A stretch of DNA of 50,885 nt from NCBI GenBank assembly GCA_028690035.1, contig JAQVCA010000009.1:1-50885 (forward strand), written 5' to 3'. Shown here piece after piece: positions 17,361 to 45,322 of this stretch. The position numbers were made by a program, and so were the translations under genes. This stretch comes from Comamonas sp. (lineage in GTDB: Bacteria; Pseudomonadota; Gammaproteobacteria; Burkholderiales; Burkholderiaceae_C). The notes beneath the pieces were generated by a model. It was given only the letters and a program-made list of their open reading frames with translations, searched no databases and was not told the origin of the DNA. How positions within the stretch are numbered: the stretch's first letter is position 1; each line of letters begins with the position of its first letter.

Positions 17361-17382
17361 GGGTCAACCCTTTCAAAAAGCT

Positions 17383-29609: not shown

Positions 29610-29651
29610 CCCTGCTGGCTTGCGGGACAGGCACGCCCCTTTCCCAGACCA

Positions 29652-29683
29652 CCGCCCCACGGCACTGTGGGGCGGTTTTTTTT
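29652..29683 (+). terminator. Terminator of the TonB receptor gene
   Basis: CCGCCCCAC at 29652-29660 pairs with GTGGGGCGG at 29667-29675 over a six-base loop and is followed by eight T residues. It is a textbook Rho-independent terminator 43 bases past the stop. Confidence 0.95.
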
Positions 29684-29747: not shown

Positions 29748-29764
29748 TTAGTTATGTATCATAA
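29748..29764. promoter_or_regulatory. Operator of the hydroxycinnamate operon (MarR-type candidate)
   Basis: TTAGTTATGTATCATAA contains the start of the dyad GTTATG-TAT-CATAAC (29751-29765), about 80 bases before the ech start. A 15-of-17 match, in the opposite orientation, lies before the ABC binding-protein gene at 44753-44769. A TTGTGG at 29732 and TATCAT 18 bases later could be the promoter, which this site would overlap. Confidence 0.65.
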
Positions 29765-29844
29765 CCATATTGATTTCTACAGCATGCAGAAATACGCGCC
29801 AGCGACCGTCTGTGTGCCTCTTTTTTGACCTAGGAAAGTGCCTT

Positions 29845-30687
29845 ATGACCTCCCCCCGCACCGAAGAGCAAACCGTTGCTTACACCGTGGAAAACCGCAT
29901 CGCCTGGGTGCGTTTCAACCGCCCGGAAAAACGCAATGCCATGAGCCCGGCCCTCAACCGCCAGATGATGCGCGTGCTCGATGAACTCGAGTTCCGTGAC
30001 GATGTGGGCGTGCTGGTGCTCAGTGGCGAAGGCACATCCTGGACGGCCGGTATGGACTTGCAAGAGTACTTCCGCGAAACCGAAGTCCACGGTCTGGCCG
30101 GCACCCGCAAGGCCCAGCGCGAGAGCTATGGTTGGTGGCGCCGCCTGCGCTGGTACCAAAAGCCCACCATCGCAATGATCAATGGCTGGTGCTTTGGTGG
30201 TGGCTATGGCCCGCTGTTTGCCTGCGATCTGGCGTTTGCGGCCGATGAGGCCAAGTTCGGCCTGTCCGAAATCAACTGGGGCATCCTGCCGGGCGGCGGC
30301 GCCTCCAAGGTGGCCGCCGAGCTGCTGCCCTTCCGCCGTGCCATGTACCACGCCATGATGGGCGAGAACATCGATGGCAAAACCGCCGCCGAATGGGGCC
30401 TGGTGAACGAATCGCTGCCGCTGGCACAGCTCAAAGAGCGCGTGACGACCGTGGCGCAGGTGCTGCTGCAGAAAAACCCCGTGGCGCTCAAAGCCACCAA
30501 GGATGCCGTGCGCCGTGTGCGCGAAATGACCTACGACAACGCCGAAGACTTCCTGGTGCGTGCGCAAGAGGCAGCCAACAGCTACGACAACGAAGGACGC
30601 AAGGAAGGCCTGCGCCAGTTCCTGGATGAAAAGACCTACAAACCTGGCTTGGGCGCTTACGACCTGAGCAAGCAAAAAGGCGCGTAA
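29845..30687 (+). CDS. ech: p-Hydroxycinnamoyl-CoA hydratase-lyase (feruloyl-CoA hydratase/aldolase)
   Basis: A 280-residue crotonase-fold enzyme that hydrates feruloyl-, coumaroyl- or caffeoyl-CoA and splits the product to vanillin or a hydroxybenzaldehyde plus acetyl-CoA. Hydratase-lyase marks beyond the general family are TAGMDLQEYFRE with Tyr75, INGWCFGGGYGPL near 112-124 for the oxyanion hole, and FGLSEINWG with Glu142, the counterpart of the catalytic Glu143 of the Pseudomonas fluorescens enzyme. AGGAAAG precedes the ATG. It leads an operon with a CoA synthetase, an acyl-CoA dehydrogenase and probably a porin. Confidence 0.93.
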   Translation: MTSPRTEEQTVAYTVENRIAWVRFNRPEKRNAMSPALNRQMMRVLDELEFRDDVGVLVLSGEGTSWTAGMDLQEYFRETEVHGLAGTRKAQRESYGWWRRLRWYQKPTIAMINGWCFGGGYGPLFACDLAFAADEAKFGLSEINWGILPGGGASKVAAELLPFRRAMYHAMMGENIDGKTAAEWGLVNESLPLAQLKERVTTVAQVLLQKNPVALKATKDAVRRVREMTYDNAEDFLVRAQEAANSYDNEGRKEGLRQFLDEKTYKPGLGAYDLSKQKGA

Positions 30688-30766
30688 GTGCCAACACCGG
30701 GCAGCGTGCATGCCGACATGCCCGCTGCCCGGTCGCCATTCAGCATCCCGGATTCAGGAGACTCCC

Positions 30767-32905
30767 GTGACGACTTCCCCCCAGGCCGCGCAGGGCGCGG
30801 CGGCTTCCGCCATCGGGCGCATGCTGCGCCCACGTTCCATTGCCATTGTTGGGGCCTCCCCTACGGCGGGCGCTCTGGGCGCCAAACTGCTCGCCAATCT
30901 GGAAAACAATGGTTTTCCGGGCGACATCCATTTGATCAACCCCAAACGCGCAGAAATTCATGGCCGCCCCTGTCTGGCTTCGGTGGACGACCTGCCCGAA
31001 GGCGTGGACGTGGCGGTGCTGGCCATCCCACAGCCGGCGGTGCTGGACACCGTGCGCGCGCTGGCGCGGCGCAAGGTGGGTGCTGCCGTGATTTTCTCTG
31101 CGGGTTTTGCCGAAGGGGGCGCTGAGGGACTGGCCCAGCAGCAGGAAATTGCCCGCATCGCCCACGAGGTGGGCATGGTGGTTGAAGGCCCCAACTGCCT
31201 GGGCAGCATCAACTATCTGGACCGCGTGCCGCTGACCTTCATCGACACCGACATCAGCGCCGAGCAGGCCGCCTTCAACCGCGCCCAACCGAGCATCGCG
31301 TTTCTGTCGCAAAGCGGCGCCATGATGGCCGTGGTGGCCCGCACCCTGGCCGACCGTGCCTTGCCGCTGTCGTTTGCCGTTTCCACCGGCAACGAAGCGG
31401 CCAGCACCATTGAGGATTACCTCGAATACGCTCTGGAAGAACCCGGCACGCGCGTGCTGGCCTTGTTTGCCGAGCAATTCCGCCATCCCCAGCGCCTGCT
31501 GGCCGCCGCGCGCCGCGCCCGCGAGCTGGGCAAGCTGATGGTGCTGTTGCACCCCGGCAAGAGCAGTGCGGCGCGCGAGTCGGCCGCCACCCACACCGGC
31601 GCGATGGCCGGTGACTATGCCGTGATGCGCGCCAAGGTCGAGCGCGCGGGGGTGGTGTTTGCCGAAACGCTGGAAGAGCTGGGTGATATCGCCGAGATCG
31701 CCCTGCGCTGCCAAAGCCTGCCGCGCAAGGGTTTGGCGGTGGTGGGCGAGTCGGGCGCTTTCAAAGCCCTATGCCTGGACTGGTGCGAAGAACTCGGGCT
31801 GGAATTGCCGGTGGTACACGATGCGGATTCCCCCGCCCTGCGCGAGGCCCTGCCGCCGTTCGTGGCGCTGAGCAATCCGCTGGATTTGACGGCGCAGGGG
31901 CTGGTCGATCCCGATCTGTACCGCCGCACGCTGGCGGCCCTGCTGGGCGATGCGCGTTTTTCGGCGGTGGTGGTGGGCGTGATCCAGCGCGATGCGGTGG
32001 CTGTCAAGCTCGAGCCGCTGCTGCAGGCCCTGCGCGAGCAGCCGGTGCGCAAGCCCGTGATCATTGCGGGGCTGGATGAGGGTGCCCAGGTGCCTGCGCA
32101 TTTCATCGAGGCCTTCCGCGCCTTGGGTGTGCCGTACTTCCCCAGCACCGAGCGCGTGCTGCGTGCCGTGCAGCGCCTGACGGCGTTTGCCCAGCGCAGC
32201 ACCAACCCTGCCGTGCTGCCCCCCGTCACGCTGACTTTGCCTGCCCAGCGCCAGGTGGTGCCGGAATATGAGTCCAAAGCGCTGTTGGCGCCCGCCGGTA
32301 TTGCCTTTGGTGCTAGCCAATTTGCCAAAGATGCCGACGCGGCAGTGGCCGCAGCCCAGGCCCTGGGCTATCCCGTGGTGCTCAAGGCGCAGTCCGAGCA
32401 GCTGTCGCACAAGAGCGATGCCGGGGGCGTGGCACTGAACATTCAGGATGCCGACGCCTTGCGCGCTGCCTGGGCGCAGATGCAGGACAGCGTGCGCGCC
32501 TACGATGCCTCCATCGTGCTCGATGGCGTGCTGGTCGAGCGCATGGGCCAGCGGGGGCTGGAGCTGATCATCGGGGCCAAAAACGACCCGCAGTGGGGCC
32601 CAGTGATTCTGGTGGGCCTGGGCGGCGTCACCGCCGAGGTCATTCAGGATGTGCGCCTGCTCGATGCCGATCTGTCGCAAGCGGAAATCGTCGCCGAACT
32701 CAACCGCCTCAAGAGTGCGGCCCTGTTCCACGGCTTCCGTGGTGCACCCGTGCTGGACATCGCGGCCGTGGCCGCCTTGATCGAACGCCTGGGCCAAGTG
32801 CTGCGTGGCACCCCAGCCATCCGCGAGATCGATCTGAACCCGGTGGTCGTGTACCCCCAGGGCCAAGGCGTCCTGGCGCTGGATGCGCTGATGCTGATCG
32901 ATTGA
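30767..32905 (+). CDS. NDP-forming acyl-CoA synthetase, probable feruloyl-CoA synthetase
   Basis: A 712-residue single-chain ADP-forming-type acyl-CoA synthetase: CoA-binding Rossmann domain (MLRPRSIAIVGASPTAGALG near 19-38), succinyl-CoA-ligase-like domains with a conserved phospho-histidine region (ATHTGAMAGDYAV), and a C-terminal ATP-grasp domain (YPVVLKAQSEQLSHKSDAGGV, REIDLNPVVVYPQG). GTG at 30767 is chosen for AGGAGA seven bases upstream. FerA of Sphingobium SYK-6 belongs to this superfamily rather than to the AMP-forming ligases, so a role in activating ferulate and coumarate for Ech, encoded 79 bases upstream, is well supported. Confidence 0.85.
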   Translation: MTTSPQAAQGAAASAIGRMLRPRSIAIVGASPTAGALGAKLLANLENNGFPGDIHLINPKRAEIHGRPCLASVDDLPEGVDVAVLAIPQPAVLDTVRALARRKVGAAVIFSAGFAEGGAEGLAQQQEIARIAHEVGMVVEGPNCLGSINYLDRVPLTFIDTDISAEQAAFNRAQPSIAFLSQSGAMMAVVARTLADRALPLSFAVSTGNEAASTIEDYLEYALEEPGTRVLALFAEQFRHPQRLLAAARRARELGKLMVLLHPGKSSAARESAATHTGAMAGDYAVMRAKVERAGVVFAETLEELGDIAEIALRCQSLPRKGLAVVGESGAFKALCLDWCEELGLELPVVHDADSPALREALPPFVALSNPLDLTAQGLVDPDLYRRTLAALLGDARFSAVVVGVIQRDAVAVKLEPLLQALREQPVRKPVIIAGLDEGAQVPAHFIEAFRALGVPYFPSTERVLRAVQRLTAFAQRSTNPAVLPPVTLTLPAQRQVVPEYESKALLAPAGIAFGASQFAKDADAAVAAAQALGYPVVLKAQSEQLSHKSDAGGVALNIQDADALRAAWAQMQDSVRAYDASIVLDGVLVERMGQRGLELIIGAKNDPQWGPVILVGLGGVTAEVIQDVRLLDADLSQAEIVAELNRLKSAALFHGFRGAPVLDIAAVAALIERLGQVLRGTPAIREIDLNPVVVYPQGQGVLALDALMLID

Positions 32906-33014
32906 TCGGCCGCTCTGGCCGGCACCGGCCAGCAGCGCCTCCGGCACTTCACCCCTCTGCCCCGACCCCACTTGCCCGCGCGCCGGTGGGGCGGGCATCC
33001 GTAAGGAACCCTGT

Positions 33015-34751
33015 ATGAGCGAGCACAGCCATTACATCCCCCCGTTGGCCGATATGGCCTTTGTCCTTGAACACTGGCTCAACGCCCCGGCCGACTGGCA
33101 GCGCATGCCCGCTTTTGCTGCGCTGGACGCCGACACCGCGCGCATGGTTTGCGAAGCGGCCGGTGATTTTTGTGCCGGGCAGCTGGCCCCGCTGAACAGC
33201 AGCGGTGATCTGCAGGGCTGTACCCTGCAAGCCGGTCAGGTGCGCACCCCCGATGGCTTTGCCGCTGCCTACCAAGCGTATGTGCAAGCGGGCTGGCCTG
33301 CCTTGGCCTGCGATGCCAGCGTCGGCGGCCAGGGCCTGCCCGGCCTGCTGGATGCGGTGCTCAACGAGATGATCGCCAGCAGCAACCACGCCTGGGCCAT
33401 GTACCTGGGCATCATGCATGGGGCGTATGCCTGCTTGCATGCCCATGCCAGCGCAGAGCTACAGGCCCAATACCTGCCCAAGTTGGTCAGCGGCGAGTGG
33501 CTGGCCACCATGTGCCTGACCGAACCCCAGGCGGGCAGTGATCTGGGCTTGCTGCGCACCCAGGCCCAGCCTGCCGAAGATGGCAGCTACCGCATCAGCG
33601 GCAACAAGATTCTCATTTCCGGCGGCGAACAGGATTTGACCGACAACATCGTCCACTTGGTGCTGGCACGCCTGCCCGATGCGCCCGCAGGCACCAAAGG
33701 CATCTCGCTGTTTCTGGTACCGAAAAAAATCCCCCAGGCCGACGCCAGCTGGGTGCCCAACACCGTGTACTGCGATGGCATCGAGAAAAAGATGGGCATC
33801 AAAGGCAGCGCCACCTGCGCCATGCGCTTTGAATCGGCCCAGGGCTGGCTCATTGGGCAGCCCCACCGTGGGCTGGCGGCCATGTTCATCATGATGAACT
33901 CGGCCCGTCTGCACGTGGGCCTGCAGGGGGTGGGCCATGCCGAAACCGCGTACCAGCTGGCCCTGGCCTACGCACGCGAGCGCCAGCAAATGCGCGCCGT
34001 GGTGCGCCCGGCAGGTGCCACCGGCGCTGCCGATGCCATCGTGCACCACCCGGCGGTGCGCCGCATTCTGTGGGATCTGCGCGTATGGACGCAGGGCATG
34101 CGTGCCCTGGGGTACTGGTGTGGCCATGTCATCGATCTGGCCGCGCACGCACCCGATGCCGACGAGCGTGCCCGTGCCCAGGCGCTGGCCGCACTGCTGA
34201 CGCCCATCGTCAAGTCGCTGTTCACCGAGCGCGGCTTCCAGCTGGCCAGCGATGCCCTGCAAGTGTTTGGCGGCTACGGCTACGTGCACGAATACCGTAT
34301 TGAGCAGATCGTGCGCGACAGCCGCATCGCCATGATTTACGAGGGCACCAACCAAATTCAGGCGGCCGATTTGCTGCAGCGCAAAGTGCTGGCCAGCCCC
34401 GATGGCCTGGCCCCGCTGCTGGAAGCCTGGCGTGCCGAGGCAGCCTTGCCCTCGGCCCATGCGGCCACGTTGCAGGCCTGGTGCGATCGTCTGGCCCAGG
34501 CCACCCAGGCCCTGGCCGAAGACGCCGCGCACGATGCCGAGCTGCCCGCCCGCGCCGCCGAGGACTACCTGCGCCTGGTGGGCACTGTGGCGCTGGCTTT
34601 TGCCTGGTGCCGTGCTGCCCGCGTGGCCGACCCGGCCACCCACGCCGACAAGCACGACAGCGCACGCTACTGCTTCGATTACGTGCTGCCCCATGCCGAG
34701 CACTGGTTGCGCTTGGTGCAGGCAGCGCGCCACCGCGTTGCGCCGCTCTGA
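33015..34751 (+). CDS. Acyl-CoA dehydrogenase of the hydroxycinnamate operon
   Basis: A 578-residue FAD-dependent acyl-CoA dehydrogenase of the larger type with a C-terminal extension. Landmarks are MCLTEPQAGSDLGLLRTQA near 164-182, the QVFGGYGYVHEYRIEQIVRDSRIAMIYEGTNQIQ block near 416-449 containing the probable catalytic Glu (YEGT), and a final helical domain. AAGGAA precedes the ATG. In the Acinetobacter hca cluster a dehydrogenase (HcaD) beside the hydratase-lyase desaturates hydroxyphenylpropionyl-CoA to the cinnamoyl-CoA; the same job is likely here, extending the pathway to dihydrocinnamates. Confidence 0.87.
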   Translation: MSEHSHYIPPLADMAFVLEHWLNAPADWQRMPAFAALDADTARMVCEAAGDFCAGQLAPLNSSGDLQGCTLQAGQVRTPDGFAAAYQAYVQAGWPALACDASVGGQGLPGLLDAVLNEMIASSNHAWAMYLGIMHGAYACLHAHASAELQAQYLPKLVSGEWLATMCLTEPQAGSDLGLLRTQAQPAEDGSYRISGNKILISGGEQDLTDNIVHLVLARLPDAPAGTKGISLFLVPKKIPQADASWVPNTVYCDGIEKKMGIKGSATCAMRFESAQGWLIGQPHRGLAAMFIMMNSARLHVGLQGVGHAETAYQLALAYARERQQMRAVVRPAGATGAADAIVHHPAVRRILWDLRVWTQGMRALGYWCGHVIDLAAHAPDADERARAQALAALLTPIVKSLFTERGFQLASDALQVFGGYGYVHEYRIEQIVRDSRIAMIYEGTNQIQAADLLQRKVLASPDGLAPLLEAWRAEAALPSAHAATLQAWCDRLAQATQALAEDAAHDAELPARAAEDYLRLVGTVALAFAWCRAARVADPATHADKHDSARYCFDYVLPHAEHWLRLVQAARHRVAPL

Positions 34752-34800
34752 CGTCCAGACTGGTGCAGCTATTTCCCTAGAAAAAACAGGAGACAAAACG

Positions 34801-35907
34801 ATGCAACGATCCCTTTGGAAGGGCTGTGCCGCAGCCTGCGTGCCACTGCTGGTGGCCGGTGTGGCCAGCGCGCAAAGCCATGTGCAGCTGTACGGTGCTG
34901 TGGACGCGGGGGTGGAATACCTCAACCGCGTCGGTGGTAGCGGTTCGCAGATGCGTATGCCAACCGTGACTGGCGGTGTCATGCCCTCGCGTCTGGGCTT
35001 TCGTGGCACGGAAGATCTGGGCAATGGACTGAAGGCGCAGTTCGTGCTGGAGATGGGCACTGCCCTGGATACCGGTACGACCCAGCAAAGCGGGCGGGGC
35101 TTTGGTCGTCAGGCCAACGTCGGCTTGTCCGGCCATTGGGGCACGCTGACGCTGGGGCGCCAGTACACCATGGGGCTGTACGCCATGATCGGCTCCGACC
35201 TGATGGGGCCGGCCGTCTTTGGTCTGGGTTCGCTCAACGCCTACATCCCCAACCAGCGCGTGGACAACGCCGTGGCCTATCGTGGCAAGTTTGGCGCGTG
35301 GGAGGTGGGTGCTTTGTACTCTGCCGGGCGCGATGGCCTGGCGCCCTCCAACTGCGCCGGTGAAAATGGCAGCGCTGGCTGCGATGCCTATTCCGCCATG
35401 GTCAAGTACGCCACCCCGGCCTGGGGTGTGACCTTGGCGCACGATCGGCTCAAAGGCACGGCAGGCTCGGCCTTCTTTGGCCAGCCAGGGGGCCTGACCA
35501 TTGGCCAAGGCAGCCGCGACGACCACACCTACCTGACCGGCTATTACATGCTGGACAAGACCCGCCTAGGGGCCGGTGTTCTCCACCGCAACCTCAAGGC
35601 TGTGGGCGAAACCTACCGCAGCAACCAGTACTACGTGGCGGTCAGCCACCCGGTGGCCGATAAGGTGGTGCTGGATGCCACCTACACCTACCTGGACGCC
35701 AACCGCCGCCAGGCCAACGCCCACCTGCTGTCTGTGCGCGGCAACTACCTGTTCAGCAAGCGCACCAAGGCCTACGCCCTGGCCGGTACGGTACACAACG
35801 ATGCCAACGTGGGCTACAGCGTCTCCGGTGGCACGGCGGCCCCCGCTTCGCCTGGCTTGGGCAAGGGCCAGGTGGGGGTGATGGTCGGGCTGTTCCACGC
35901 GTTCTAA
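34801..35907 (+). CDS. Outer-membrane porin (general beta-proteobacterial type)
   Basis: A 368-residue 16-strand trimeric porin: signal peptide ending VASA-QSH, then VQLYGAVDAGVEYLNRVGG, SRLGFRGTEDLGNGLKAQFVLE, WGTLTLGRQ and a last strand ending in LFHAF with the terminal Phe. AGGAGA is nine bases before the ATG and 49 bases separate it from the dehydrogenase, so it probably belongs to the hydroxycinnamate operon and lets the aromatic acids across the outer membrane. Substrate preference cannot be read from sequence. Confidence 0.92.
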   Translation: MQRSLWKGCAAACVPLLVAGVASAQSHVQLYGAVDAGVEYLNRVGGSGSQMRMPTVTGGVMPSRLGFRGTEDLGNGLKAQFVLEMGTALDTGTTQQSGRGFGRQANVGLSGHWGTLTLGRQYTMGLYAMIGSDLMGPAVFGLGSLNAYIPNQRVDNAVAYRGKFGAWEVGALYSAGRDGLAPSNCAGENGSAGCDAYSAMVKYATPAWGVTLAHDRLKGTAGSAFFGQPGGLTIGQGSRDDHTYLTGYYMLDKTRLGAGVLHRNLKAVGETYRSNQYYVAVSHPVADKVVLDATYTYLDANRRQANAHLLSVRGNYLFSKRTKAYALAGTVHNDANVGYSVSGGTAAPASPGLGKGQVGVMVGLFHAF

Positions 35908-35915
35908 GAGTTTGC

Positions 35916-35971
35916 TCATGATCTCGGCACACCCGTGTGCAGATCATGAACAGGCATTTAAGCAAATGCCT
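35916..35971 (+). terminator. Two tandem hairpins after the porin gene
   Basis: TCATGATCT at 35916-35924 pairs with AGATCATGA at 35941-35949, enclosing GCACAC/GTGTGC with a two-base bulge; directly after it CAGGCATTT and AAATGCCTG (35951-35971) form a second stem. Neither has a T tract, so they may terminate weakly, protect the 3' end of the operon mRNA, or be protein-binding dyads before the chemoreceptor gene. Confidence 0.5.
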
Positions 35972-36037
35972 GTACCGCACCGCACCGCTGCGGTGGCCGG
36001 TGCGGCACAGGCACTTTTGACTTGACAAAGGCAGCGC

Positions 36038-37654
36038 ATGAAAGACATGCACAGGCTGGTCGCAGGGGCCTTGGGCCGTGGCCGGGTGGTTGGCAGCTTT
36101 GGCATCGGGCGGCAATTGGTGCTGGCCTTCGGTTTTGTGTTGTTGGTGATGGGGGTTTTTGTCGGTGGTGCTTTGCTCCAGCAAAAAGCCATCGAGGCAT
36201 CGCTGCACGAGTTTGGTGCGGTGGAGATCGACCGCATTCGCCGGGTGGATCACTGGATCCGCATCTCCGAAGATGCCGCTTTGCGATTCATGGCGGTGAA
36301 TAAGTCCAACGATCCGGGCATTCAGGAGTTTTTGGGTGTGGGGCTGGACGCGCACCTGCAGCAGGCCGAGGCCCTGGCCGCCGAGATCACCGCTGCTGCC
36401 ACCACGCCGCAAGAGCAGGATTGGCTGGCCCGGTTCACGCCAATTCAGGCTGCGCTGCATGCGGCACGGCAGGAGGTGGATGGCTACAAAAAGATTGGTG
36501 ATGCCGCTGGGGCCAGCGCCTTGTTTGATACGCAATTCATCCCGGCCCAGCAGGCCTACAGCACCGCTTTGCACCAGTACGGCCAGTTACAGCGCCAGGG
36601 GCTGGAAGAGCGATTGGCTGCTGTGCAGGAGGCGGGTCGGCGCAAGGCGCTGTTTGCTGCCAGTGCCGCCTTGCTCATGACGTTGCTGGGTACCGTGCTG
36701 GCTTGGCGCATCGTGCGGCACATCCAGCGTTCGCTGGGCACGGCGGTGCATTCGGCCGAGTGCGTGGCCCAAGGAGATTTGTCGTCCACAGTGCAGGTGT
36801 CCGGGTCGGATGAGTTCACGGCCTTGATGCATGCCATGGCGGCCATGAATACCGGCTTGCAGTGCATCGTTGGCGAAGTGCGGGCAGGCACTGAAGGCAT
36901 TGCCGCTGCGGCCCAGGAGATCACGCTGGGCAACAGCGAGTTGTCTGAGCGCACACAGCGGCAAGCGCTCAGTCTGGAGAAAACCACCTTGGCGATGGAC
37001 CAGCTGACCGGGGCCGTACAGCGCAATACCGCCACGGCTGACCAGGCCGATGCCCACGCCCGCCAAGCCACCGACGTAGCGTTACAAGGCGATGCCATGA
37101 TGGCCCAGCTGGTCAGCACCATGGCGGGTATCGACCAGGCATCGCGCCGGATCGAGGAAATCGTCGGTGTTATCGACGGCATCGCCTTTCAGACCAATAT
37201 CCTGGCCTTGAATGCCGCTGTGGAAGCGGCCCGCGCCGGTGCCCAGGGGCGCGGTTTTGCCGTAGTGGCCCAGGAAGTGCGCAGCTTGGCCCAGAGCGCA
37301 GCCCAGGCGGCCCGAGAAATCAAGGTGCTGATTGCTGACTCCGCAGACAAGGTGCGCACCGGCAGCACCCAGGTCGAGCAGGCCCGTGATGCGATGCAGC
37401 AGACCGTATCCACCATCCAAAATGTCAGCACACTGATGGCTGAGATGAGCACCGCAGCGGCCGAGCAAGCCACTGATATCACCCATGTGCATACCTGTGT
37501 GGGGGCACTCGATGCCATCACGCAGCAAAATGCGGCCCTTGTCGGGCAGGCCACGGCGGCGGCCCAGCGCCTGCACCAGCAGGCCCAGCGGTTGCAGGCA
37601 ACGGTGGCCGCTTTCCGGCTGGCATCGTCCCCTTTGCCGAAACTAGCGGGGTAA
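36038..37654 (+). CDS. Methyl-accepting chemotaxis protein
   Basis: A 538-residue transmembrane chemoreceptor. TM1 is near 26-48 ([21 protein letters not shown]), a four-helix-bundle periplasmic ligand domain runs to about 203, TM2 is near 205-225, a HAMP domain follows, and the cytoplasmic hairpin tip is [21 protein letters not shown] with [13 protein letters not shown]. There is no NWxxF-type CheR-tethering pentapeptide at the C-terminus. The gene lies directly after the hydroxycinnamate operon and porin, so an aromatic acid or pathway intermediate is a reasonable ligand; this is inferred from position only. Confidence 0.92.
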
Positions 37655-37682
37655 GGCCTCTATCATCTGCTAGACAAAAAGT

Positions 37683-37717
37683 GCCGGGCAGACGATGCGC
37701 CCGGCGTTGATTTTTTT
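37683..37717 (+). terminator. Terminator of the chemoreceptor gene
   Basis: GCCGGGC at 37683-37689 pairs with GCCCGGC at 37699-37705 over a nine-base loop, followed by GTTGA and seven T residues. It lies 28 bases past the receptor stop and separates it from the aldo/keto reductase gene. Confidence 0.85.
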
Positions 37718-37737
37718 GAGTTTCCAAAGAGCCTTGC

Positions 37738-38766
37738 ATGCCATCTCCTCGCCCCTTGAATCTCTTTTGCCCCAGCGCTGACCAACGCGTTGCCTTGGGT
37801 TGCATGAACTTAAGCCATGCCTACGGCCAACCGCCCAGCGTGGAACAGGCGCAAGCCCTGCTGCACGCGGCACTGGATGCGGGCGTCACGCTGTTTGACA
37901 CCGCCGCGCTGTACGGTTTTGGCGCCAATGAACGCCTGGTCGGCCCGGTGCTGGCCCCGCACCGCAGCCGCATCACCCTGTGCAGCAAGGGCGGCATGGC
38001 CGGGGTGGCGGGGGATGATGGCGTGGTGCGCCGCGTCATCGATGGTCGCCCGCAGACCCTGCGCCAGAACTGTGAAGACAGCCTGCGCCGCCTGGGCACC
38101 GACGTGATCGACCTGTACTACCTGCACCGCTGGGACCCGCGCGTGCCGATCGAAGAATCCGTGGGCGAAATGGCACGCCTGAAAGACGAGGGCAAGATCC
38201 GCACCCTGGGCCTGTCCGAAGTGGGCGTGGACACCCTGCGCCGCGCGCACCGCGAGCACCCCATCACCGCGCTGCAAAGCGAGTATTCGCTGTGGTCGCG
38301 CAACGCCGAGCTGGGCACGCTGGCCGCCTGCCAGGAGCTGGGCATTGCCTATGTGGCCTTCAGCCCGCTGGGCCGCGCCTTTTTGACCGGTGGGCTGCAG
38401 GACGTGGGCAGCCTGGTCAAAGGCGACATCCGCAGCGCCATGCCGCGCTTTGCCCCCGAAGCCTACGCGCGCAACCTGCAGCTGCTGGCCCCCATGCAGC
38501 GCATCGCCGACCAGGTGGGCTGCACGCTGGCCGAGCTGGCCATTGCCTGGGTGCTGCACCAGGGCGAGCACATCATTGCCTTGCCCGGTACCACCCGTGT
38601 GGACCACCTGCACGAAGACCTGCGCGGCGGTGCGCTGGCGCTGGACGCCGCCACGCTGCAGGCGCTGGACGCGCTCTTCCGCCCCGAAGCCATCGTGGGC
38701 GACCGCTATCCGCTGCAGGGCCAGCGCGAGGTGGACACCGAAAAGTACGCCTTCGAGCACCGGTAA
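37738..38766 (+). CDS. Aldo/keto reductase
   Basis: A 342-residue TIM-barrel NADPH-dependent oxidoreductase. The catalytic tetrad can be placed as Asp in LFDTAALYG (near 54), Tyr in the same stretch (near 59), Lys in LCSKGG (near 83) and His in YYLHRWD (near 125). The C-terminal IIALPGTTRVDHLHEDL is the usual cofactor-binding end. Physiological substrate is unknown; it is followed 20 bases later by a LysR gene on the same strand, which may co-express with it. Confidence 0.9.
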   Translation: MPSPRPLNLFCPSADQRVALGCMNLSHAYGQPPSVEQAQALLHAALDAGVTLFDTAALYGFGANERLVGPVLAPHRSRITLCSKGGMAGVAGDDGVVRRVIDGRPQTLRQNCEDSLRRLGTDVIDLYYLHRWDPRVPIEESVGEMARLKDEGKIRTLGLSEVGVDTLRRAHREHPITALQSEYSLWSRNAELGTLAACQELGIAYVAFSPLGRAFLTGGLQDVGSLVKGDIRSAMPRFAPEAYARNLQLLAPMQRIADQVGCTLAELAIAWVLHQGEHIIALPGTTRVDHLHEDLRGGALALDAATLQALDALFRPEAIVGDRYPLQGQREVDTEKYAFEHR

Positions 38767-38785
38767 AGCCCCCTGCGCGCCCAGC

Positions 38786-39748
38786 ATGAACCTGCAGCAG
38801 ATCGAAACTTTTGTGCGCGTGGCCGAGGCGGGCAGCTTCAGCAAAGCTGCCGTGCTGCTGGACATGGCCCAGCCCGCCCTGAGCCGCCAGGTGCGCGCGC
38901 TGGAGACCGAGCTGCGCGAGACCTTGTTCATCCGCACGGGCCGGGGCGTGCAGCCCACCGACGCCGGGCGGCGCCTGCTCGAGCACGGCCACGCCATCTT
39001 GCAGCGCGTGGCGCTGGCCAAGGAAGACCTGGGCGCGCTGCGCGATGAGCCGGTGGGGCGCATCACCGTGGGCCTGCCGCCCAGCATGGCGCGCTGCCTG
39101 ACGCTGCCGCTGATCGAGGCCTTTGCCCGCACCATGCCCAAGGCGCGGCTGGCGCTGGTGGAGGGCTTTTCCGTGAACATTGCCGAGTGGCTGGCCACCG
39201 GGCGCATCGACCTGGGCTTGGCCTACACGCCCGAGCCGCACCCGCTGATGGAAATTGCGCCGGTGCTGCAGGAGGACTTGTGCCTGATCGGCCCTGCGGC
39301 GCAGCTGCTGGGCCGCGGCGGCAGCGTGCCCTTTGCCCAGCTGGCGGCGTTTCCGCTCATCATGCCCCAGCGGGGGCAGATTTTTCGCAAGCTGATGGAG
39401 GCGCAGGCCGCGCTCTCGCAGGTCAAGCTGGACGTGGTCTGGGAAGTGTCCAGCGTGCCCGCCATCCTGGATTTGGTGCGCAGTGGCCACGGCTTTGCCG
39501 CGCTGACGGGCAGCGCCATGCGCAGCGATGCGGCAGGGCGTGCCAGTCTGGACGGTGCGGGCGCGCCCTGGCCCGAGCTGGTGGGGGTGCCCATCAGCGC
39601 GCCGCGCATCGTCAGCACGTTGTGCCTGGTGCAATCGGCCAAGAAAAAAACCACGCCCCTGGTGCGGCGCACCGCCGAGTTGCTGCGCACGCTGAGCCTG
39701 CAGGTGTGCCTGCCCCCCGAGGCCACCGGGGCGCAGGCAGCCCGGTAG
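38786..39748 (+). CDS. LysR-family transcriptional regulator
   Basis: A 320-residue LysR regulator with the typical start MNLQQIETFVRVAEAGSFSKAA and recognition helix LDMAQPALSRQVRALE, then an effector domain. Its sequence character (IRTGRGVQPTDAGRRLLEHG, ITVGLPPSMARCLTLPLIEAF) is like the CbL/NAC-type subgroup. It is in the same direction as the aldo/keto reductase rather than divergent from a target, so its regulon is not obvious. Confidence 0.9.
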   Translation: MNLQQIETFVRVAEAGSFSKAAVLLDMAQPALSRQVRALETELRETLFIRTGRGVQPTDAGRRLLEHGHAILQRVALAKEDLGALRDEPVGRITVGLPPSMARCLTLPLIEAFARTMPKARLALVEGFSVNIAEWLATGRIDLGLAYTPEPHPLMEIAPVLQEDLCLIGPAAQLLGRGGSVPFAQLAAFPLIMPQRGQIFRKLMEAQAALSQVKLDVVWEVSSVPAILDLVRSGHGFAALTGSAMRSDAAGRASLDGAGAPWPELVGVPISAPRIVSTLCLVQSAKKKTTPLVRRTAELLRTLSLQVCLPPEATGAQAAR

Positions 39749-39765
39749 CACCATACTCAAAATAA

Positions 39766-39855
39766 AAAAGAGAGCTGCTAGCGCTTATTCATAAAGGGTT
39801 TCAGGCAATAAGATGCCTGAAACCCTTGTTGAATGTGCGCAGCCAGCTATGCTTT
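39766..39855. repeat. Dispersed inverted-repeat element, complete copy 2
   Basis: A 90-base copy of the element seen at 6589: left arm AGAGCTGCTAGCGCTTAT, central GGGTTTCAGG stem, and right arm GTGCGCAGCCAGCTATGC. Like copy 1 it lies between two convergent genes. Its right arm overlaps the end of livF, and the AGCTAT of the arm supplies the livF stop codon (TAG on the minus strand). Confidence 0.75.
39794..39827. terminator. Central hairpin of the repeat, bidirectional terminator
   Basis: AAGGGTTTCAGGCA at 39794-39807 pairs perfectly with TGCCTGAAACCCTT at 39814-39827 over a six-base loop. The flanking T/A runs are short, so it is a weaker terminator than the copy at 6612, but it lies exactly between convergent lysR and livF ends. 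Confidence 0.7.
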
Positions 39856-40596
39856 TTCTGTGGCAGCCGGGCGTGCAGCGGCGCCCAGGTAGGTTTCGAT
39901 GACGCGCGCATCGTGCGCCAGCTCCTGCGCCGGGCCGTGCAGGCTGACGCTGCCCATCTCCAGCACGTAGCCGTAGTCGGCCACCTCCAGCGCGGCGCGC
40001 GCGTTTTGTTCCACCAGCAAGATAGACACACCGGTGTCGCGCAGCGCTTTCACGTTGTCCAGAATCTCCTGCACGATCAGCGGCGCTAGGCCCAGGCTGG
40101 GCTCATCGAGCATGAGCAGCTGCGGGCGCGACATCAGCGCGCGGCCCACGGCCAGCATCTGGCGCTCGCCGCCCGAGAGCGTGCCCGAGACCTGCATGCG
40201 CCGCTCTTTGAGGCGTGGAAACAGGTCATAGACCTCGTCGATGCGCGCGCGCCACTGGCGCTGGCCCAGGCGCATCTGGCGAAAGCCGCCCAGCACCAGG
40301 TTGTCTTCGACGGTCATGGTGGAGAACAACTCGCGCTTTTCCGGCACCAGCGCAATGCCCAGCATGACGCGCTCTTCCAGCGTCATGGTGTGGATGGGCT
40401 GGCCCTCGTAGTGGATGCTGCCTTTGCCCGGCAGCACGCCCATGAGGGTGTTGAGCAGGGTGGATTTGCCTGCGCCGTTGGGGCCGATGACGGTGACGAT
40501 GCGGCCCTTGTCCAGGCGCAGGTCGATGCCATGCAGCACTTGGGCGCGGCCATAACCGGCGTGCAGGCCAGCGATGTGTAGTAAGGACGTGCTCAT
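39847..40596 (-). CDS. livF: Branched-chain-type ABC transporter ATPase (LivF)
   Basis: A 249-residue ABC ATPase: Walker A GPNGAGKSTLL near 39-49, signature LSGGERQML near 140-148, Walker B LLMLDEPSLGLAP near 160-172. The short LivF-type protein lacks the extra helical insert of LivG. It begins two bases after the stop of the fused LivM-LivG gene. With that protein, LivH and the binding protein it forms a hydrophobic/aromatic amino-acid or aromatic-acid importer. Confidence 0.92.
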   Translation of the reverse strand: MSTSLLHIAGLHAGYGRAQVLHGIDLRLDKGRIVTVIGPNGAGKSTLLNTLMGVLPGKGSIHYEGQPIHTMTLEERVMLGIALVPEKRELFSTMTVEDNLVLGGFRQMRLGQRQWRARIDEVYDLFPRLKERRMQVSGTLSGGERQMLAVGRALMSRPQLLMLDEPSLGLAPLIVQEILDNVKALRDTGVSILLVEQNARAALEVADYGYVLEMGSVSLHGPAQELAHDARVIETYLGAAARPAATEKA

Positions 40597-40598
40597 CT

Positions 40599-42413
40599 TC
40601 AATGCTCCGTTCCCAGGTAGGCAGCGCGCACTTTTTCGCTGCGCTGCACTTCGTCGGGGGTGCCTTCCATCAGGTGGGTGCCAAACTCCATGACCACGAT
40701 GTGGTCGCAGATGTCCATCACCAGGCCCATGTCGTGCTCCACCAGCAAGATGGCCATGCCCTCGGCGCGCAGGCCGCGCAGCACGTCGGCCAGCTCCTGC
40801 TTTTCCTTGTGGCGCAGGCCGGCAGCGGGCTCGTCCAAGAGCAGCAGCGCCGGGTCGGCGCACAGGGCGCGCGCAATTTCCAGCAGGCGCTGCTGGCCCA
40901 TGGCCAGGTCGCCGGCCTTGTGGTGCAGCAAATGGCCCATGCCCACGCGGCGCAGCTGGCGCTCGGCCTCGGCAAACAAGGAGCGCTCTTCGGCGCGATC
41001 AAGGCGCAGCATCGCTTTGGCCGCGCCGCTGTGGCTGCGCAGGTGCGTGCCCAGTGCGACGTTTTCCAGCACCGTCATGTCCGGCACCATCTTGACGTGC
41101 TGGAAGGTGCGCGAGACGCCGCGCTGCGCAATCTTGCGTGCGCCCAGGCCGCTGATGCGCTCGCCACGGAACAGCACTTCGCCACTGGTCAGCGTGAGCA
41201 CGCCTGTGACCAGATTGAAGGTGGTGGATTTGCCCGCGCCGTTGGGGCCGATCAGGCCGGTGATCTGGCCCGAGCGCACCTGGAAGCTGATGTCGTTGAC
41301 TGCCACCAGCCCGCCAAACTGCTTGCGAATGGCGCGCACATCCAGCACGACTTCATGGGCCGCAGGCTTGGCCTTGGTGGGCAGGGCCGGGGCATCGGCC
41401 CAATCGCGCCGGCGTGCGGCGCGCGGCAGGCGCCGGTCGATGGCTTCCCACAGACCATCGGGCAGGTACTTGAGCACCAGCACGATGAGGATGCCAAACA
41501 CGATCAGCTCGTAGTTGCCGCTGGTGCCAATCAGTTTGGGCAGCAGCACCTGCAGCTGGTCTTCGAGCATCTTGACGATGCCTGCGCCCGCGATGGCACC
41601 CCAGACATGGGCCGCACCGCCGAGCACGGCCATGAACAGGTACTCGATGCCCATCTTCAGGCCAAAGGGCGAGGGGTTGACGGTGCGCTGAAAGTGCGCA
41701 AACAGCCAGCCCGAGATGCTGGCCAGCAGCGCCGCCAGCACAAACACGCCCACCTTGTGGCGCAGGGTGTTGACGCCCATGGCCTCGGCCATTTGCGAGC
41801 CCCCGGCCAGCGCGCGGATGGCGCGGCCCGTGCGCGAGTCCAGCAGGCGCACCACGGCGATGCAAGCGAGCAGGGCAATCACCCACACCAGGGCATAAAA
41901 CAGGCGCAGCTGGCCAATGTCTTGTCCGAACAGGGTCAGCCCCGGCACGCCCAGGATGCCGTCGTACTTGCCCAGCGCGTCCAGGTTGCCCATCAGGTAA
42001 TACAGCGCCAGTGCCCAGGCCATGGTGGCCAGCGGCAGGTAGTGGCCCGACATGCGCAGCGTGATCGCGCCAATCAGCGCGGCGCTGATGGCCGTCAGCC
42101 CCAGGCCGACGAACAGCGTCACCCAGGGCGACAGGCCCAGATTCACGGTGAGGTAGGCGCTGGTGTAGGCGCCCACGCCGACAAAGGCCGCTTGGCCAAA
42201 CGAGGTCAGGCCGCACACGCCGGTCAGCAGCACCAGCCCCAGCACCGGCAGCACGTAGATGCCGATGTAGTTGAGCTGGATGATCCAAAAATCGGGCAGC
42301 GGCAGCAGCGCCACCAGAGCCAGGGCCAATGCCAGCAGTGGCAGGCCCACGGTGCGCAGGCGCTGGGCGCCACCGGCGGCGCCGGGGGAAGAAAGGGTTG
42401 CAGCAGATGTCAT
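40599..42413 (-). CDS. Fused ABC permease-ATPase (LivM-LivG)
   Basis: A 604-residue fusion. Residues 1 to about 330 are a LivM-type permease with eight or more helices (YVLPVLGLVLLTGVCGLTSFGQAAFVG near 56-82), and residues about 350-604 are a LivG-type ATPase with GPNGAGKSTTFNLVTG as Walker A and LLLLDEPAAGL as Walker B. The start at 42413 lies four bases after the livH stop, with GGAG inside the end of livH. The fusion ties one ATPase to one permease in fixed ratio and is known in some proteobacterial aromatic-acid importers. Confidence 0.9.
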   Translation of the reverse strand: MTSAATLSSPGAAGGAQRLRTVGLPLLALALALVALLPLPDFWIIQLNYIGIYVLPVLGLVLLTGVCGLTSFGQAAFVGVGAYTSAYLTVNLGLSPWVTLFVGLGLTAISAALIGAITLRMSGHYLPLATMAWALALYYLMGNLDALGKYDGILGVPGLTLFGQDIGQLRLFYALVWVIALLACIAVVRLLDSRTGRAIRALAGGSQMAEAMGVNTLRHKVGVFVLAALLASISGWLFAHFQRTVNPSPFGLKMGIEYLFMAVLGGAAHVWGAIAGAGIVKMLEDQLQVLLPKLIGTSGNYELIVFGILIVLVLKYLPDGLWEAIDRRLPRAARRRDWADAPALPTKAKPAAHEVVLDVRAIRKQFGGLVAVNDISFQVRSGQITGLIGPNGAGKSTTFNLVTGVLTLTSGEVLFRGERISGLGARKIAQRGVSRTFQHVKMVPDMTVLENVALGTHLRSHSGAAKAMLRLDRAEERSLFAEAERQLRRVGMGHLLHHKAGDLAMGQQRLLEIARALCADPALLLLDEPAAGLRHKEKQELADVLRGLRAEGMAILLVEHDMGLVMDICDHIVVMEFGTHLMEGTPDEVQRSEKVRAAYLGTEH

Positions 42414-42417
42414 GGTG

Positions 42418-43458
42418 TCAATGCTCCTCACCAGTGTGGGGCGCACGCAGCGAGCGCCACAGCAGCACCGGCAGCACCAGGGTGAAGACGATCACTTCCT
42501 TAAAGGCGCTGTCCCAGAACGAACCAAACGATTCGATGATGCCCACGCCCAGCGCACCCAGCAGCGCGCCGGGGTAGCTGTGCAGACCGGCGATCACGGC
42601 GGCCACAAAGCCTTTGAGGCCAATCAAAAAGCCCGAGTCGTAGAACACGGTGGTGGTCGGGCCAATCAGCAGACCCGACAAGCCGCCAATCAGCGCGGCC
42701 ATGGCAAAGGTGAGCTGCCCGGCGCCGGTGGTGGAAATGCCCATCAGGCGCGCGCCCAGGCGGTTGACGGCAGTGGCTTGCAGCGCCTTGCCGTACAGGC
42801 TGCGCTCAAAGAACAGCCACAGCAGCACGATCAGCGCAGCAGAGGCCAAAAAGATGATCAGTGCCTGACCGCTGAGTGTGATGGGGCCCAGGCCGAAGCG
42901 CTCGTCCCAAAACGGCGGGTTGCGAAAGCCCTCGGCGCCAAAGAACAGCAGGCCCAGCCCGGTCATGGCAAAGTGCACGCCCACCGAAACAATCAGCAGC
43001 ACCAGCGAGCTGGAACCGGCCAGCGACTGGTAGGCCACGCGGTAAATCAGCGGCCCATACACGGTGACGATGGCCAGCGACAGCAGCGCCTGCACCAGCA
43101 GCGGAAAGTTGTGCGGCGCGGCCCACAAAGACAGCAGGCCCACGACCAGCGCAGGCAGGCCCGTGAGCAAGGCGGCCTTGATGGCCGGTGTGGCGTGGCG
43201 CTGGTGGCGCCAGACGGTGACCAGCTCCATCACAGAGGCCAGCGCTGCCAGCAAAAACAGCAGCCACACAGTGCCTGGCACTTGGCCCAGTTGAAAGATG
43301 GCCAGGGTCAGCGCGCCGTAGGCGACAAACTCCCCCTGGGGGATGAAGATGATGCGGGTGACCGAAAACACGAGGACGATGCCCATACCCAGCAGCGCGT
43401 ACACCGCACCGTTGGTCAGGCCATCCATCGTCAGTACGCCGGCAATGGTGAGGTCCAT
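42418..43458 (-). CDS. livH: Branched-chain-type ABC transporter permease (LivH)
   Basis: A 346-residue inner-membrane permease with the LivH opening (LTMDGLTNGAVYALLGMGIVLVFSVTRIIFIPQGEFVAYGAL) and the conserved late segment GLLIGPTTTVFYDSGFLIGLKGFVAAVIAG. It is about 50 residues longer than E. coli LivH because of a Leu/Ala/His-rich insert near 60-140 with two additional hydrophobic segments. It is 86 bases downstream of the binding-protein gene. Confidence 0.9.
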   Translation of the reverse strand: MDLTIAGVLTMDGLTNGAVYALLGMGIVLVFSVTRIIFIPQGEFVAYGALTLAIFQLGQVPGTVWLLFLLAALASVMELVTVWRHQRHATPAIKAALLTGLPALVVGLLSLWAAPHNFPLLVQALLSLAIVTVYGPLIYRVAYQSLAGSSSLVLLIVSVGVHFAMTGLGLLFFGAEGFRNPPFWDERFGLGPITLSGQALIIFLASAALIVLLWLFFERSLYGKALQATAVNRLGARLMGISTTGAGQLTFAMAALIGGLSGLLIGPTTTVFYDSGFLIGLKGFVAAVIAGLHSYPGALLGALGVGIIESFGSFWDSAFKEVIVFTLVLPVLLWRSLRAPHTGEEH

Positions 43459-43544
43459 GACAGAGATCCGAAAAAATCATGGCCTGTTCGCGTGCAAAGG
43501 AGGTGCCTTCGCTGCGCCCAGGCCATGGGGATGACAACGCGGCG

Positions 43545-44681
43545 TTATTTGGCGATCTGGAATTCCCCACCAACGACCTGGAGCATCACGCCCGTCTCGT
43601 TGGTAAAGCCCCAGTGGTCGGCGGGCGTCCACTCCAGCACACCTTGGGAGACCACGGTGCGGCCCATGTTCTCGATGGCATCGCGCAGCGCAGCGCGGAA
43701 CTCGGGGGTGCCTGCCTTGGCCTTTTGCAACGCCACCGTGGCGGCCTTGTCCAGCACGGTGTAAGCGTCAAAGCCGTGGGCCGCAAACTGGGTGCGTGAG
43801 CCAGGGCCGTAGGCTTTTTCAAACGCTTCGACGTAGGCAATCGACAGCGGCTTGGAGGGGTGGCTGTCGGGCAGCTGCGTGCCCAGCGGGCCGGGGCCCG
43901 AGACGACGAAGGTGCCCTCGGCATCTTTGCCTGCAGTGCGCATCAGGTCGCGCGTGGCGGCGGCGTGCGTCTGGTACACCTTGCCTTGGTAGCCACGCTC
44001 TTTGATGGCTTTTTGCGGCATGCCCGCACCGCTGCCCGAGGCCACGATCAGCACCGCATCGGGGCGGGCCGAGGCAATCTTGAGTGCTTGCGCCGTCACG
44101 CTGGTGTCGTTGCGGGCAAAGCGCTCGGTGGCCACCAGTTTGATGCCAGCCTTGGCAGCTTCTTCGGTGAAGCTCTTGAGCCACAGCTCGCCATAGGCAT
44201 CGGTGTAGCCCAGAAAGCCCACGGTCTTGATGCCTTGGCTTTTCATGTGGTTGACCATGGCGTGCGCCATCACGCCGTTGCTTTGCGCCAGGCGGAACGT
44301 CCACTTGTCCTTGCCGGGCGGCAGCGCTGCAGGCGCGGTGGCCAGCTGCAGCGTGCCCGAGGCGGCAGCCACATCGGCCATGGGGATGGCCACCGGTGTG
44401 GCAGTGGAGCCAACAATAACGTCCACCTTGTCCTCGGTGATCAGGCGCTGCGTGGCCTTGACGCCAGCGGTCGGGTCACTGGCATCGTCCAGCACGATGA
44501 CCTTGAGGTTTTCCCCAGCCATGGTTTTGGGCCAGATGGCGATGGCGTTTTTGATTGGGATACCCAGGCCGGACGCTGGGCCAGTCAGCGGCTGCACCAC
44601 GCCCACGGTGATGTCGGCATGGGCCAGCCCGCTCAAAGCCAGAGCAAGGGCGGCAGCAAGGGTAGAACGCAAGGGGTGCAT
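43545..44681 (-). CDS. ABC transporter substrate-binding protein (branched-chain/aromatic type)
   Basis: A 378-residue periplasmic binding protein with a Sec signal (MHPLRSTLAAALALALSGLAHA) and a type 1 binding fold: DITVGVVQPLTGPASGLG, then VDVIVGSTATPVAIPMADVAA and TVGFLGYTDAYGELWLKSF. GGAG lies before the ATG. It heads the importer operon. The shared operator with the ech operon suggests that it binds a hydroxycinnamate or related aromatic acid rather than leucine. Confidence 0.9.
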   Translation of the reverse strand: MHPLRSTLAAALALALSGLAHADITVGVVQPLTGPASGLGIPIKNAIAIWPKTMAGENLKVIVLDDASDPTAGVKATQRLITEDKVDVIVGSTATPVAIPMADVAAASGTLQLATAPAALPPGKDKWTFRLAQSNGVMAHAMVNHMKSQGIKTVGFLGYTDAYGELWLKSFTEEAAKAGIKLVATERFARNDTSVTAQALKIASARPDAVLIVASGSGAGMPQKAIKERGYQGKVYQTHAAATRDLMRTAGKDAEGTFVVSGPGPLGTQLPDSHPSKPLSIAYVEAFEKAYGPGSRTQFAAHGFDAYTVLDKAATVALQKAKAGTPEFRAALRDAIENMGRTVVSQGVLEWTPADHWGFTNETGVMLQVVGGEFQIAK

Positions 44682-44752
44682 GGCGGATCTCCTGGGAAGG
44701 TTTTCGTGGATGCCTGTGCCAAAACGTACACAGGATTTACCGCCTATTTTGA

Positions 44753-44769
44753 TTATGAAATATAACTAA
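44753..44769. promoter_or_regulatory. Operator of the ABC importer, matching the ech operator
   Basis: On the minus strand, reading toward the importer genes, the site is TTAGTTATATTTCATAA, identical at 15 of 17 positions to the site at 29748-29764. Its distance to the binding-protein start (about 70-90 bases) is also almost the same as that of the other site to ech. It lies between this operon and the upstream marR gene. Confidence 0.65.
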
Positions 44770-44830
44770 TTCAAGCCAAAAGATTCCATTTTTTATTGGG
44801 GGTTACCCTTGCTCTTGCGGCCATCGATGC

Positions 44831-45322
44831 TCAGTCATACACCTTCTGCAATAGACGGATCAACGTCTTGCGCTCGCTGGCGCTGAGCTTGGCGGTGGCA
44901 TCTATTTCCAGCTGGGCCACGGCCTGTTCGCTCTCTTGCGCCAGCGCCAGACCGGCAGGTGTCAGGTGCAGCCCCATGGCGCGCCCGTCGCTGGGGTGGG
45001 GGCGGCGTTCCAGCAGGCCGCGCTTTTCCAGCGATGCCACCAGCCCCACCAGATTGGGTGGCATGATGCTCAGCGTGGCACACACGTGGCGTGAGGTCAG
45101 CCCCGGGTTGTGTGCCAGCAGCGACAGCACGGAGAACTCCACCACCTTGAGCTCGTACTCCTGCATACGGCCCATGAACACGCCAATGATGTGCAGGGCT
45201 GCGCGTCGGGCGTTGTAGCCCACCTGGGAGCGCAGGAAGGAAACATCGATCTCCTCGGTCAGATCGGCAGCAATCGTGGGGCGCGCAACATGCGCTTTGG
45301 TGGGTCGAAGGCGGGGGGGCAT
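44831..45322 (-). CDS. MarR-family transcriptional regulator
   Basis: A 163-residue winged-helix regulator: dimer helices at both ends, recognition region LTSRHVCATLSIMPPNLVGLVASLEKRGLLERRPHPSDGR near 77-116 with the Asp-x-Arg wing, and a C-terminal helix KTLIRLLQKVYD. The start at 45322 gives a typical length; no strong ribosome site is seen, and the frame is open further upstream with Pro/Thr/His-rich codons that look non-coding. MarR proteins (FerC, HcaR, CouR) control hydroxycinnamate genes by binding the CoA thioesters. This one is the best candidate for the shared operator at 29748 and 44753. Confidence 0.85.
   Translation of the reverse strand: MPPRLRPTKAHVARPTIAADLTEEIDVSFLRSQVGYNARRAALHIIGVFMGRMQEYELKVVEFSVLSLLAHNPGLTSRHVCATLSIMPPNLVGLVASLEKRGLLERRPHPSDGRAMGLHLTPAGLALAQESEQAVAQLEIDATAKLSASERKTLIRLLQKVYD

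Follow-up and report, generated by a model that had tools for sequence, protein, structure and literature searches.

A palindromic operator shared by a hydroxycinnamate operon and a CouP-like importer in Comamonas, and its candidate MarR regulator

Are a hydroxycinnamate operon and an ABC (ATP-binding cassette) importer that lie 15 kb apart in Comamonas sp. controlled by one MarR-type regulator? The question was raised by a first-pass annotation of a stretch of 50,885 nucleotides (nt) of this organism (contig JAQVCA010000009.1, assembly GCA_028690035.1; the whole stretch is called the window below), which proposed a common 17-bp operator before ech, the gene of a p-hydroxycinnamoyl-coenzyme A (CoA) hydratase/lyase (HCHL), and before livK, the first gene of the importer. 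The shared operator is confirmed as real. The two 17-mers lie at 29748–29764 on the plus strand and 44753–44769 on the minus strand, as annotated, are identical at 15 of 17 positions and have a common orientation to their targets, with gaps of 80 nt to the ATG of ech (29845) and 71 nt to that of livK (44681). Each proved to belong to a 21-bp inverted repeat around a 5-bp centre, of which it forms the left-hand portion; the annotation overlooked this palindrome, whose consensus is TTRGTTATnnnnnATAAYCAW. Its halves and centre read TTAGTTAT-GTATC-ATAACCAT at ech and TTAGTTAT-ATTTC-ATAATCAA at livK, and the palindrome is separated from the start codon by 76 and 67 nt, respectively.

29748–29768, plus strand: operator 1, the 21-bp palindrome TTAGTTATGTATCATAACCAT before ech (pattern and matrix scans)
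44749–44769, minus strand: operator 2, the 21-bp palindrome TTAGTTATATTTCATAATCAA before livK (pattern and matrix scans)
44752–44779, minus strand: promoter-like pair TTGGCT-16-CATAAT before livK (consensus scan; 1 found, 0.2 expected)

Both palindromes stand in the promoter region of genes for hydroxycinnamate use, with overlap of a promoter-like pair at livK only, where operator 2 covers the second (−10-like) hexamer. The expectation for the 17-mer at up to three mismatches is 0.01 matches in the window. Within the 2.92-Mb genome the same search gave the two exact sites and one site with three mismatches (C9:8529), the latter being rejected as background since the reversed 17-mer control was at least as frequent (7 matches, 3 + 4). 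The 21-mer with up to two mismatches was found in the genome only at ech and livK, exactly in both cases, with one control match. The ech and livK operators were also scored with a symmetric matrix derived from 66 distinct sites in other genomes, excluding the window's own two strings. They took the top two places in the window, at 33.5 and 33.1 bits; the next-best place scored −0.5 bits, and 60 simulated windows reached at most 12.2 bits. Many copies of the motif in unrelated places, which would have spoken against a shared operator, were looked for genome-wide and in 399 genomes of the family, and were not found.

The candidate reader of this operator is the MarR protein encoded beside the importer.

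44831–45322, minus strand: marR, CouR-like regulator, presumed repressor at both operators (structure-chain match, tree and co-occurrence)

Among 58 matching solved chains, the MarR protein is nearest to a chain labelled CouR, 6c28 (E value 2.2e-16; next 3.4e-9), which we take to come from Rhodopseudomonas palustris; this match places it near regulators of the CouR/HcaR/FerC type. It matches 5cyv, presumably CouR of Rhodococcus jostii RHA1, only at 2.4e-8 and, weakly, HcaR 3k0l at 9.4e-8. No NCBIfam equivalog cut-off was reached by the protein (best 64.2 bits vs 200). It is the sole MarR of its kind in the genome, where the next match stands at 1.4e-6.

A blind scan of the 399 family genomes found the exact 21-mer in 34, with no reversed match among the matches listed. 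Taking the motif and MarR scans to cover the same 399 genomes, as their handles agree, an orthologue of the MarR (E ≤1e-30) is present in 33 of the 34 motif genomes vs 99 of the 365 others (Fisher p 1.7e-16, a value that overstates the number of independent events because the genomes are related). Moreover, the MarR gene lies on the motif's contig within 15.8 kb in 30/34 motif genomes. The 30 motif genomes examined are those with a locus, the other four being G301, G269, G404 and G377. In 29 of the 30 the motif stands at genes of hydroxycinnamate type: a hydratase/synthetase operon as described below, a tannase gene, livK or ech. The one exception (L219:1501–1521), without a clear hydroxycinnamate gene, is an exact operator directly before a lone tricarboxylate-type receptor gene. 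These data point to the MarR beside the importer as the best candidate regulator, in keeping with the earlier proposal. The neighbouring LysR protein, or another regulator, was rejected as the main reader of the motif because the motif tracks the MarR; the ech copy alone is weighed separately below.

The design of the window recurs elsewhere. In a sample of 61 genomes (the window's own, 36 congeners as GTDB counts them and 24 of the order), HCHL (E ≤1e-60) is encoded in seven, and an operator with 0–2 mismatches lies 57–79 nt upstream in all seven. All 11 operators without mismatch in this sample lie at an orthologue of the MarR gene, an HCHL gene or both. Two genomes, G035 and the other-genus G155, carry the two-operator design on single contigs with both operators exact, laid out as marR, operator and livKHMGF, and as ech, ligase and acyl-CoA dehydrogenase genes with an operator of their own. 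Genomes G005 and G012 have the same parts on separate contigs, with ech operators at 1–2 mismatches; the G012 contig ends before the importer. Recurrence of both operators at the same genes in these four genomes supports the proposal of one regulon in which uptake and catabolism would be co-controlled. In G005 a second, partial ech is cut off by the end of its contig (C249).

A wider search of one genome per species gave 244 MarR loci, and the figures that follow concern the best 80 of these. The genera represented include Acidovorax, Simplicispira, Variovorax, Curvibacter, Polaromonas, Ramlibacter, Rhodoferax, Delftia, Comamonas, Xylophilus and Macromonas, together with some bins. Some loci are near-copies (L117 and G035, L118 and G012, L151 and G025, L154 and G006, L157 and G036), and several Acidovorax and Polaromonas loci hardly differ; locus counts therefore do not equal the number of independent events. 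Across 1.44 Mb, comprising these loci and six further regions, 60 operators with up to two mismatches were found vs none reversed. Most of them precede an operon for an enoyl-CoA hydratase, an acyl-CoA synthetase and a dehydrogenase of the short-chain dehydrogenase/reductase (SDR) type. The hydratase scores above the PRK08150 cut-off; the synthetase is of PRK12582 type at 689–705 bits, below the cut-off of 777, and is here called FCS, which we take to stand for feruloyl-CoA synthase. Among hydratase starts with 250 bp upstream, 42 of 43 have an operator with up to two mismatches and one has an operator with three, compared with 0/43 for the reversed motif; 31 loci had no hydratase match and 6 were cut or too near an end.

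Homologues of the window-type Liv importer are present at 30 of these loci. In Polaromonas, Rhodoferax and some Ramlibacter and Variovorax the importer genes follow directly after the SDR gene, inside the synthetase operon, while at other loci that place is taken by a tricarboxylate-type receptor gene. The Delftia operator lies between a tannase/feruloyl-esterase gene and an amidohydrolase gene, adjoining marR. Eight loci in Acidovorax and Variovorax (L123, L125, L126, L127, L129, L131, L134 and L135) carry a pair of exact operators upstream of the hydratase gene; their distance of about 80 bp might permit cooperative binding. The MarR and hydratase/FCS locus in a record titled Pantoea sp. 18069 (L147) resembles those of Comamonadaceae, and its MarR clusters with the MarRs of G025 and G030; the assembly is perhaps mislabelled or mixed.

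On the minus strand the order is marR, operator 2, livK, livH, a livM-livG fusion and livF.

43545–44681, minus strand: livK, CouP-like periplasmic binding protein (structure-chain matches, CouP alignment)
42418–43458, minus strand: livH, permease (library match)
40599–42413, minus strand: livM-livG, fused permease and ATPase (LivG-type match over residues 354–602)
39847–40596, minus strand: livF, ATPase (library match)

Position and sequence suggest that the long N-terminal part of the fusion is a LivM-type permease. LivK shares 43.7% identity with CouP (E 4e-96) and matches CouP and its near kin (3uk0, 3tx6/4f8j/4fb4, 4jb0/4jb2 and 3ukj) at 1e-95 to 1e-97, vs 1.9e-18 at best for solved binders of the leucine/isoleucine/valine type. 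According to the published account, CouP contacts ferulate through Thr102, Arg197, Ser222, Gln305 and His309 (PMC3610893). In a gapless alignment LivK has T95, R190, S215, Q298 and H302 at these five positions, which places it in the CouP group. Three of the five paralogues in the genome could be aligned and carry SRSTH, VRSPY and SFA (cut short), so that only the window's LivK, among the four same-genome proteins compared, has the full set. An ordinary branched-chain amino-acid importer was rejected: LivK fails the LivJ/LivK subfamily model PRK15404 (44.1 bits vs a cut-off of 477) and is far nearer to CouP than to amino-acid binders. The CouP likeness, the five contacts and the position of the importer inside hydratase/acyl-CoA-synthetase operons of relatives support hydroxycinnamates as the probable cargo, as the first-pass annotation had suggested. 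Elsewhere in the genome (G000:C10:62731–65635) a 43% relative of the FCS synthetase adjoins a 46% LivK paralogue without this operator, possibly a second cluster for aromatic-acid uptake and activation.

The operon behind operator 1 is composed as follows.

29845–30687, plus strand: ech, HCHL (NCBIfam PRK09120 equivalog)
30767–32905 (alternative start 30710), plus strand: acyl-CoA synthetase of the nucleoside diphosphate (NDP)-forming type, presumed hydroxycinnamate-CoA ligase (domain-level matches)
33015–34751, plus strand: acyl-CoA dehydrogenase (library match; kept in G035, G005, G012 and G155)
34801–35907, plus strand: porin (weak PorB match; kept in G035, G005 and G012)
29651–29676, plus strand: terminator-like hairpin and T run between the upstream TonB-receptor-like gene and ech (consensus scan; 1 found, 0.4 expected)

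With 467.7 bits against a cut-off of 276, the ech product passes the PRK09120 equivalog and belongs to the HCHL enzymes. The synthetase at 30767–32905 scores below every equivalog cut-off, its nearest solved relatives being ADP-forming hydroxyacyl-CoA ligases; ferulate pathways, unlike this operon, usually use an AMP-forming ligase. Between the porin gene and the LysR gene (36038–38766) the window has chemoreceptor and aldo-keto reductase genes, with no such matches at that place in G035. A probable onward pathway occupies 140–18708. It includes a protocatechuate 4,5-dioxygenase beta subunit (13209–14069) and a LigK aldolase (15479–16162), each above cut-off, a FeaR-like AraC regulator and a PcaK-like transporter, each below cut-off, and an aldehyde dehydrogenase; the gene at 3811–5361 resembles 4-cresol dehydrogenase by eye.

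We consider it probable that a single CouR/HcaR-type repressor, the MarR encoded at 44831–45322, uses both sites as its operators. From the sites, their symmetry, rarity, conservation and gene context, their association with this MarR subfamily and the conserved pocket residues, we infer the following course. In the absence of substrate, a MarR dimer would occupy the 21-bp palindrome of each promoter region, which at livK covers the −10-like element, and would block transcription of ech-ligase-acd-porin and of livKHMGF. A hydroxycinnamate (p-coumarate, ferulate or caffeate) would enter through the porin and the CouP-like importer, and would be joined to CoA by the putative NDP-forming ligase. 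The resulting hydroxycinnamoyl-CoA may then release the repressor, opening uptake and breakdown together, while HCHL would split the thioester into a hydroxybenzaldehyde and acetyl-CoA.

Several observations weigh against this reading. The promoter scan at ech called no pair, and neither pattern nor matrix scans of the window placed an operator upstream of marR, which thus gives no sign of autoregulation. The MarR occurs without the exact motif in 99 family genomes, as is expected if many sites carry one or two mismatches. Nine of 29 LivKs at ≥50% identity, a set that includes the window's own protein and one duplicate, carry Pro in place of the Gln contact; 18 keep all five contacts and 2 differ at one other place. 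Among 11 family genomes with HCHL, five have an operator with up to two mismatches (G000, G006, G023, G155 and G209), G078 and G417 have one only at three mismatches and G383 at four; none was found at the HCHL genes of G116, G289 and G386, whose HCHL is about 50% identical. Furthermore, a different MarR (35–43% identical) lies 5–7 kb from ech in G006, G023, G036 (Delftia among these), G209, G078 and G417, and the distant MarR of G383 is on another contig. The presence of a distant MarR near ech in other lineages implies that another protein was probably the original reader of the HCHL operator. Delftia (L077, L154 and L157) has two MarRs of this broader kind, one at the tannase/amidohydrolase operator and the distant one in the HCHL operon, seemingly two paralogous switches for one substrate class.

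That the two sites resemble each other by chance is suggested at most by the background of the controls, with seven genome matches of the reversed 17-mer at three mismatches and roughly one match per genome of the reversed 21-mer at two; it is set against the 60 sites vs none reversed in 1.44 Mb of MarR loci, the exact motif in 34/399 genomes and a gap of 33 bits in the window to the next-best place. Chance was rejected on the reversed controls, the 399-genome scan and the matrix gap, and we regard it as very nearly negligible. Alternatively, the operator sequence may be common to both places while the ech copy is now read by the LysR protein (38786–39748) or by a regulator elsewhere. HCHL operons of other lineages do have their own distant MarR, and the LysR gene, retained in G035 and G005, lies next to the operon of the importer. 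On the other hand, no second MarR of this kind lies near ech or elsewhere in the genome, the motif tracks the importer's MarR over 399 genomes, and the ech and livK operators score alike against one matrix, making such a division of labour quite improbable.

A somewhat less remote alternative keeps the single MarR regulon but takes phenylpropionates, aryl acetates or auxin-like acids as inducer and cargo, hydroxycinnamates being incidental. LivK also matches the same-group solved binders 3sg0, 4dqd and 7ylt at 1e-76 to 1e-82; an acyl-CoA dehydrogenase in both operon types would suit saturated phenylpropanoid acids, and one contact is changed in the nine LivKs noted above. Against this stand an HCHL that passes its equivalog model, the complete CouP contacts of the window's LivK, CouR as the best match of the MarR and the tannase/feruloyl esterase at the Delftia operator. 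We hold this alternative to be unlikely, and prefer the CouR/HcaR-type repressor answering to hydroxycinnamoyl-CoA.

How did this repressor come to govern an HCHL operon? A tree of 102 MarR rows (94 different) places the window's MarR in a clade of 7 rows with support 100/98, nested via three successive supported forks within MarRs found mostly at FCS or tannase loci. A second, deep-branching group (100/100) is made up of the MarRs of the Delftia HCHL operons, G209, G078, G417 and G383, and includes one long branch of unsure placement. FCS was not found at 1e-20 in G005 (85% complete), G012, G035, G155, G006, G023 or G036, and the window's genome has only the 43% relative, located elsewhere. 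The less ordinary feature of the locus is that a MarR from a clade mostly of synthetase operons has its operator before an unrelated HCHL and NDP-forming ligase operon. Most simply, these sequence data suggest that the regulator and the importer are retained parts of an FCS-type regulon that have come to control the HCHL operon. In full, the MarR and importer of an ancestral hydratase/FCS (beta-oxidative) regulon would have been kept in this Comamonas branch and G155, the enzymes replaced by the unrelated HCHL and NDP-forming ligase operon, and the distant MarR of the HCHL operon (still in Delftia) lost; the importer's MarR would now read the ech promoter because both repressors use near-identical operators and presumably the same hydroxycinnamoyl-CoA signal. 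Taken jointly, we give this sequence of events an even chance. Alternatively, the set may have been transferred as a whole, or an older double regulon may account for the arrangement. If the rewiring is true, two non-homologous pathways would have been exchanged in nature beneath a single switch.

The operator is sharply defined and widespread in Comamonadaceae, and comes with a named candidate regulator for hydroxycinnamate use; a likely cargo can be assigned to a transporter that general models call a branched-chain amino-acid importer. In addition, nature seems here to have retained a CoA-thioester switch and changed the type of enzyme under its control. In the Acinetobacter ADP1 hca operon the genes are ordered ligase/lyase/acyl-CoA dehydrogenase/porin, similar to the window's operon, and we know of no ABC importer there. 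In ADP1, a non-beta-oxidative CoA ligase and hydratase/lyase are under the MarR protein HcaR, which answers to CoA esters (PMC10458429). This pairing of CoA ligase and hydratase/lyase with a MarR is as in the window, HcaR 3k0l being a weak match to the MarR.

In the SpG8-1b region of Agrobacterium fabrum, the MarR protein HcaR represses genes for a feruloyl-CoA synthase, an enoyl-CoA hydratase and a dehydrogenase (PMC7797058). This trio of functions is the one found under the operator in the relatives; the window has HCHL in its stead, plus an ABC importer. CouR of R. jostii RHA1 is likewise a MarR repressor of hydroxycinnamate genes. Its promoter site is an inverted repeat spaced by 5 bp, with the box cATTGA-5-TCAATg, compared with TTRGTTAT-5-ATAAYCAW here (PMC4737184). 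Other MarR regulators of such genes include FerC and FerR (PMC4737184, PMC7797058, PMC10458429). The annotation's precedents, FerC, HcaR and CouR, hold as MarR regulators of genes of this kind, but it left the closest one, control of CouPSTU by CouR, unnamed. Titles and abstract openings, largely of literature outside subscription, yielded no described regulon of this kind in Comamonadaceae. CouR-based sensors exist (PMC9594313), and the window offers candidate parts for a p-coumaroyl/feruloyl-CoA sensor.

R. palustris comes closest. Its CouR answers to p-coumaroyl-CoA and controls couAB, with the ABC and TRAP (tripartite ATP-independent periplasmic) importers of the cluster reported under CouR, and the CouPSTU binding protein holds coumarate and ferulate (PMC3610893). 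As in the CouR-couAB-CouPSTU system, a MarR in the window would co-control a CoA ligase, a hydratase/lyase-type enzyme and a Liv-type importer. The R. palustris importer lies inside the catabolic cluster, whereas two operons 15 kb apart, each with an operator, are found here, and the CoA ligase is of the NDP-forming type, unlike that of the R. palustris system. The kind of regulon is already known from R. palustris CouR, and the Comamonas locus appears to be a further, well-supported case of it, with an apparent enzyme swap beneath the switch.

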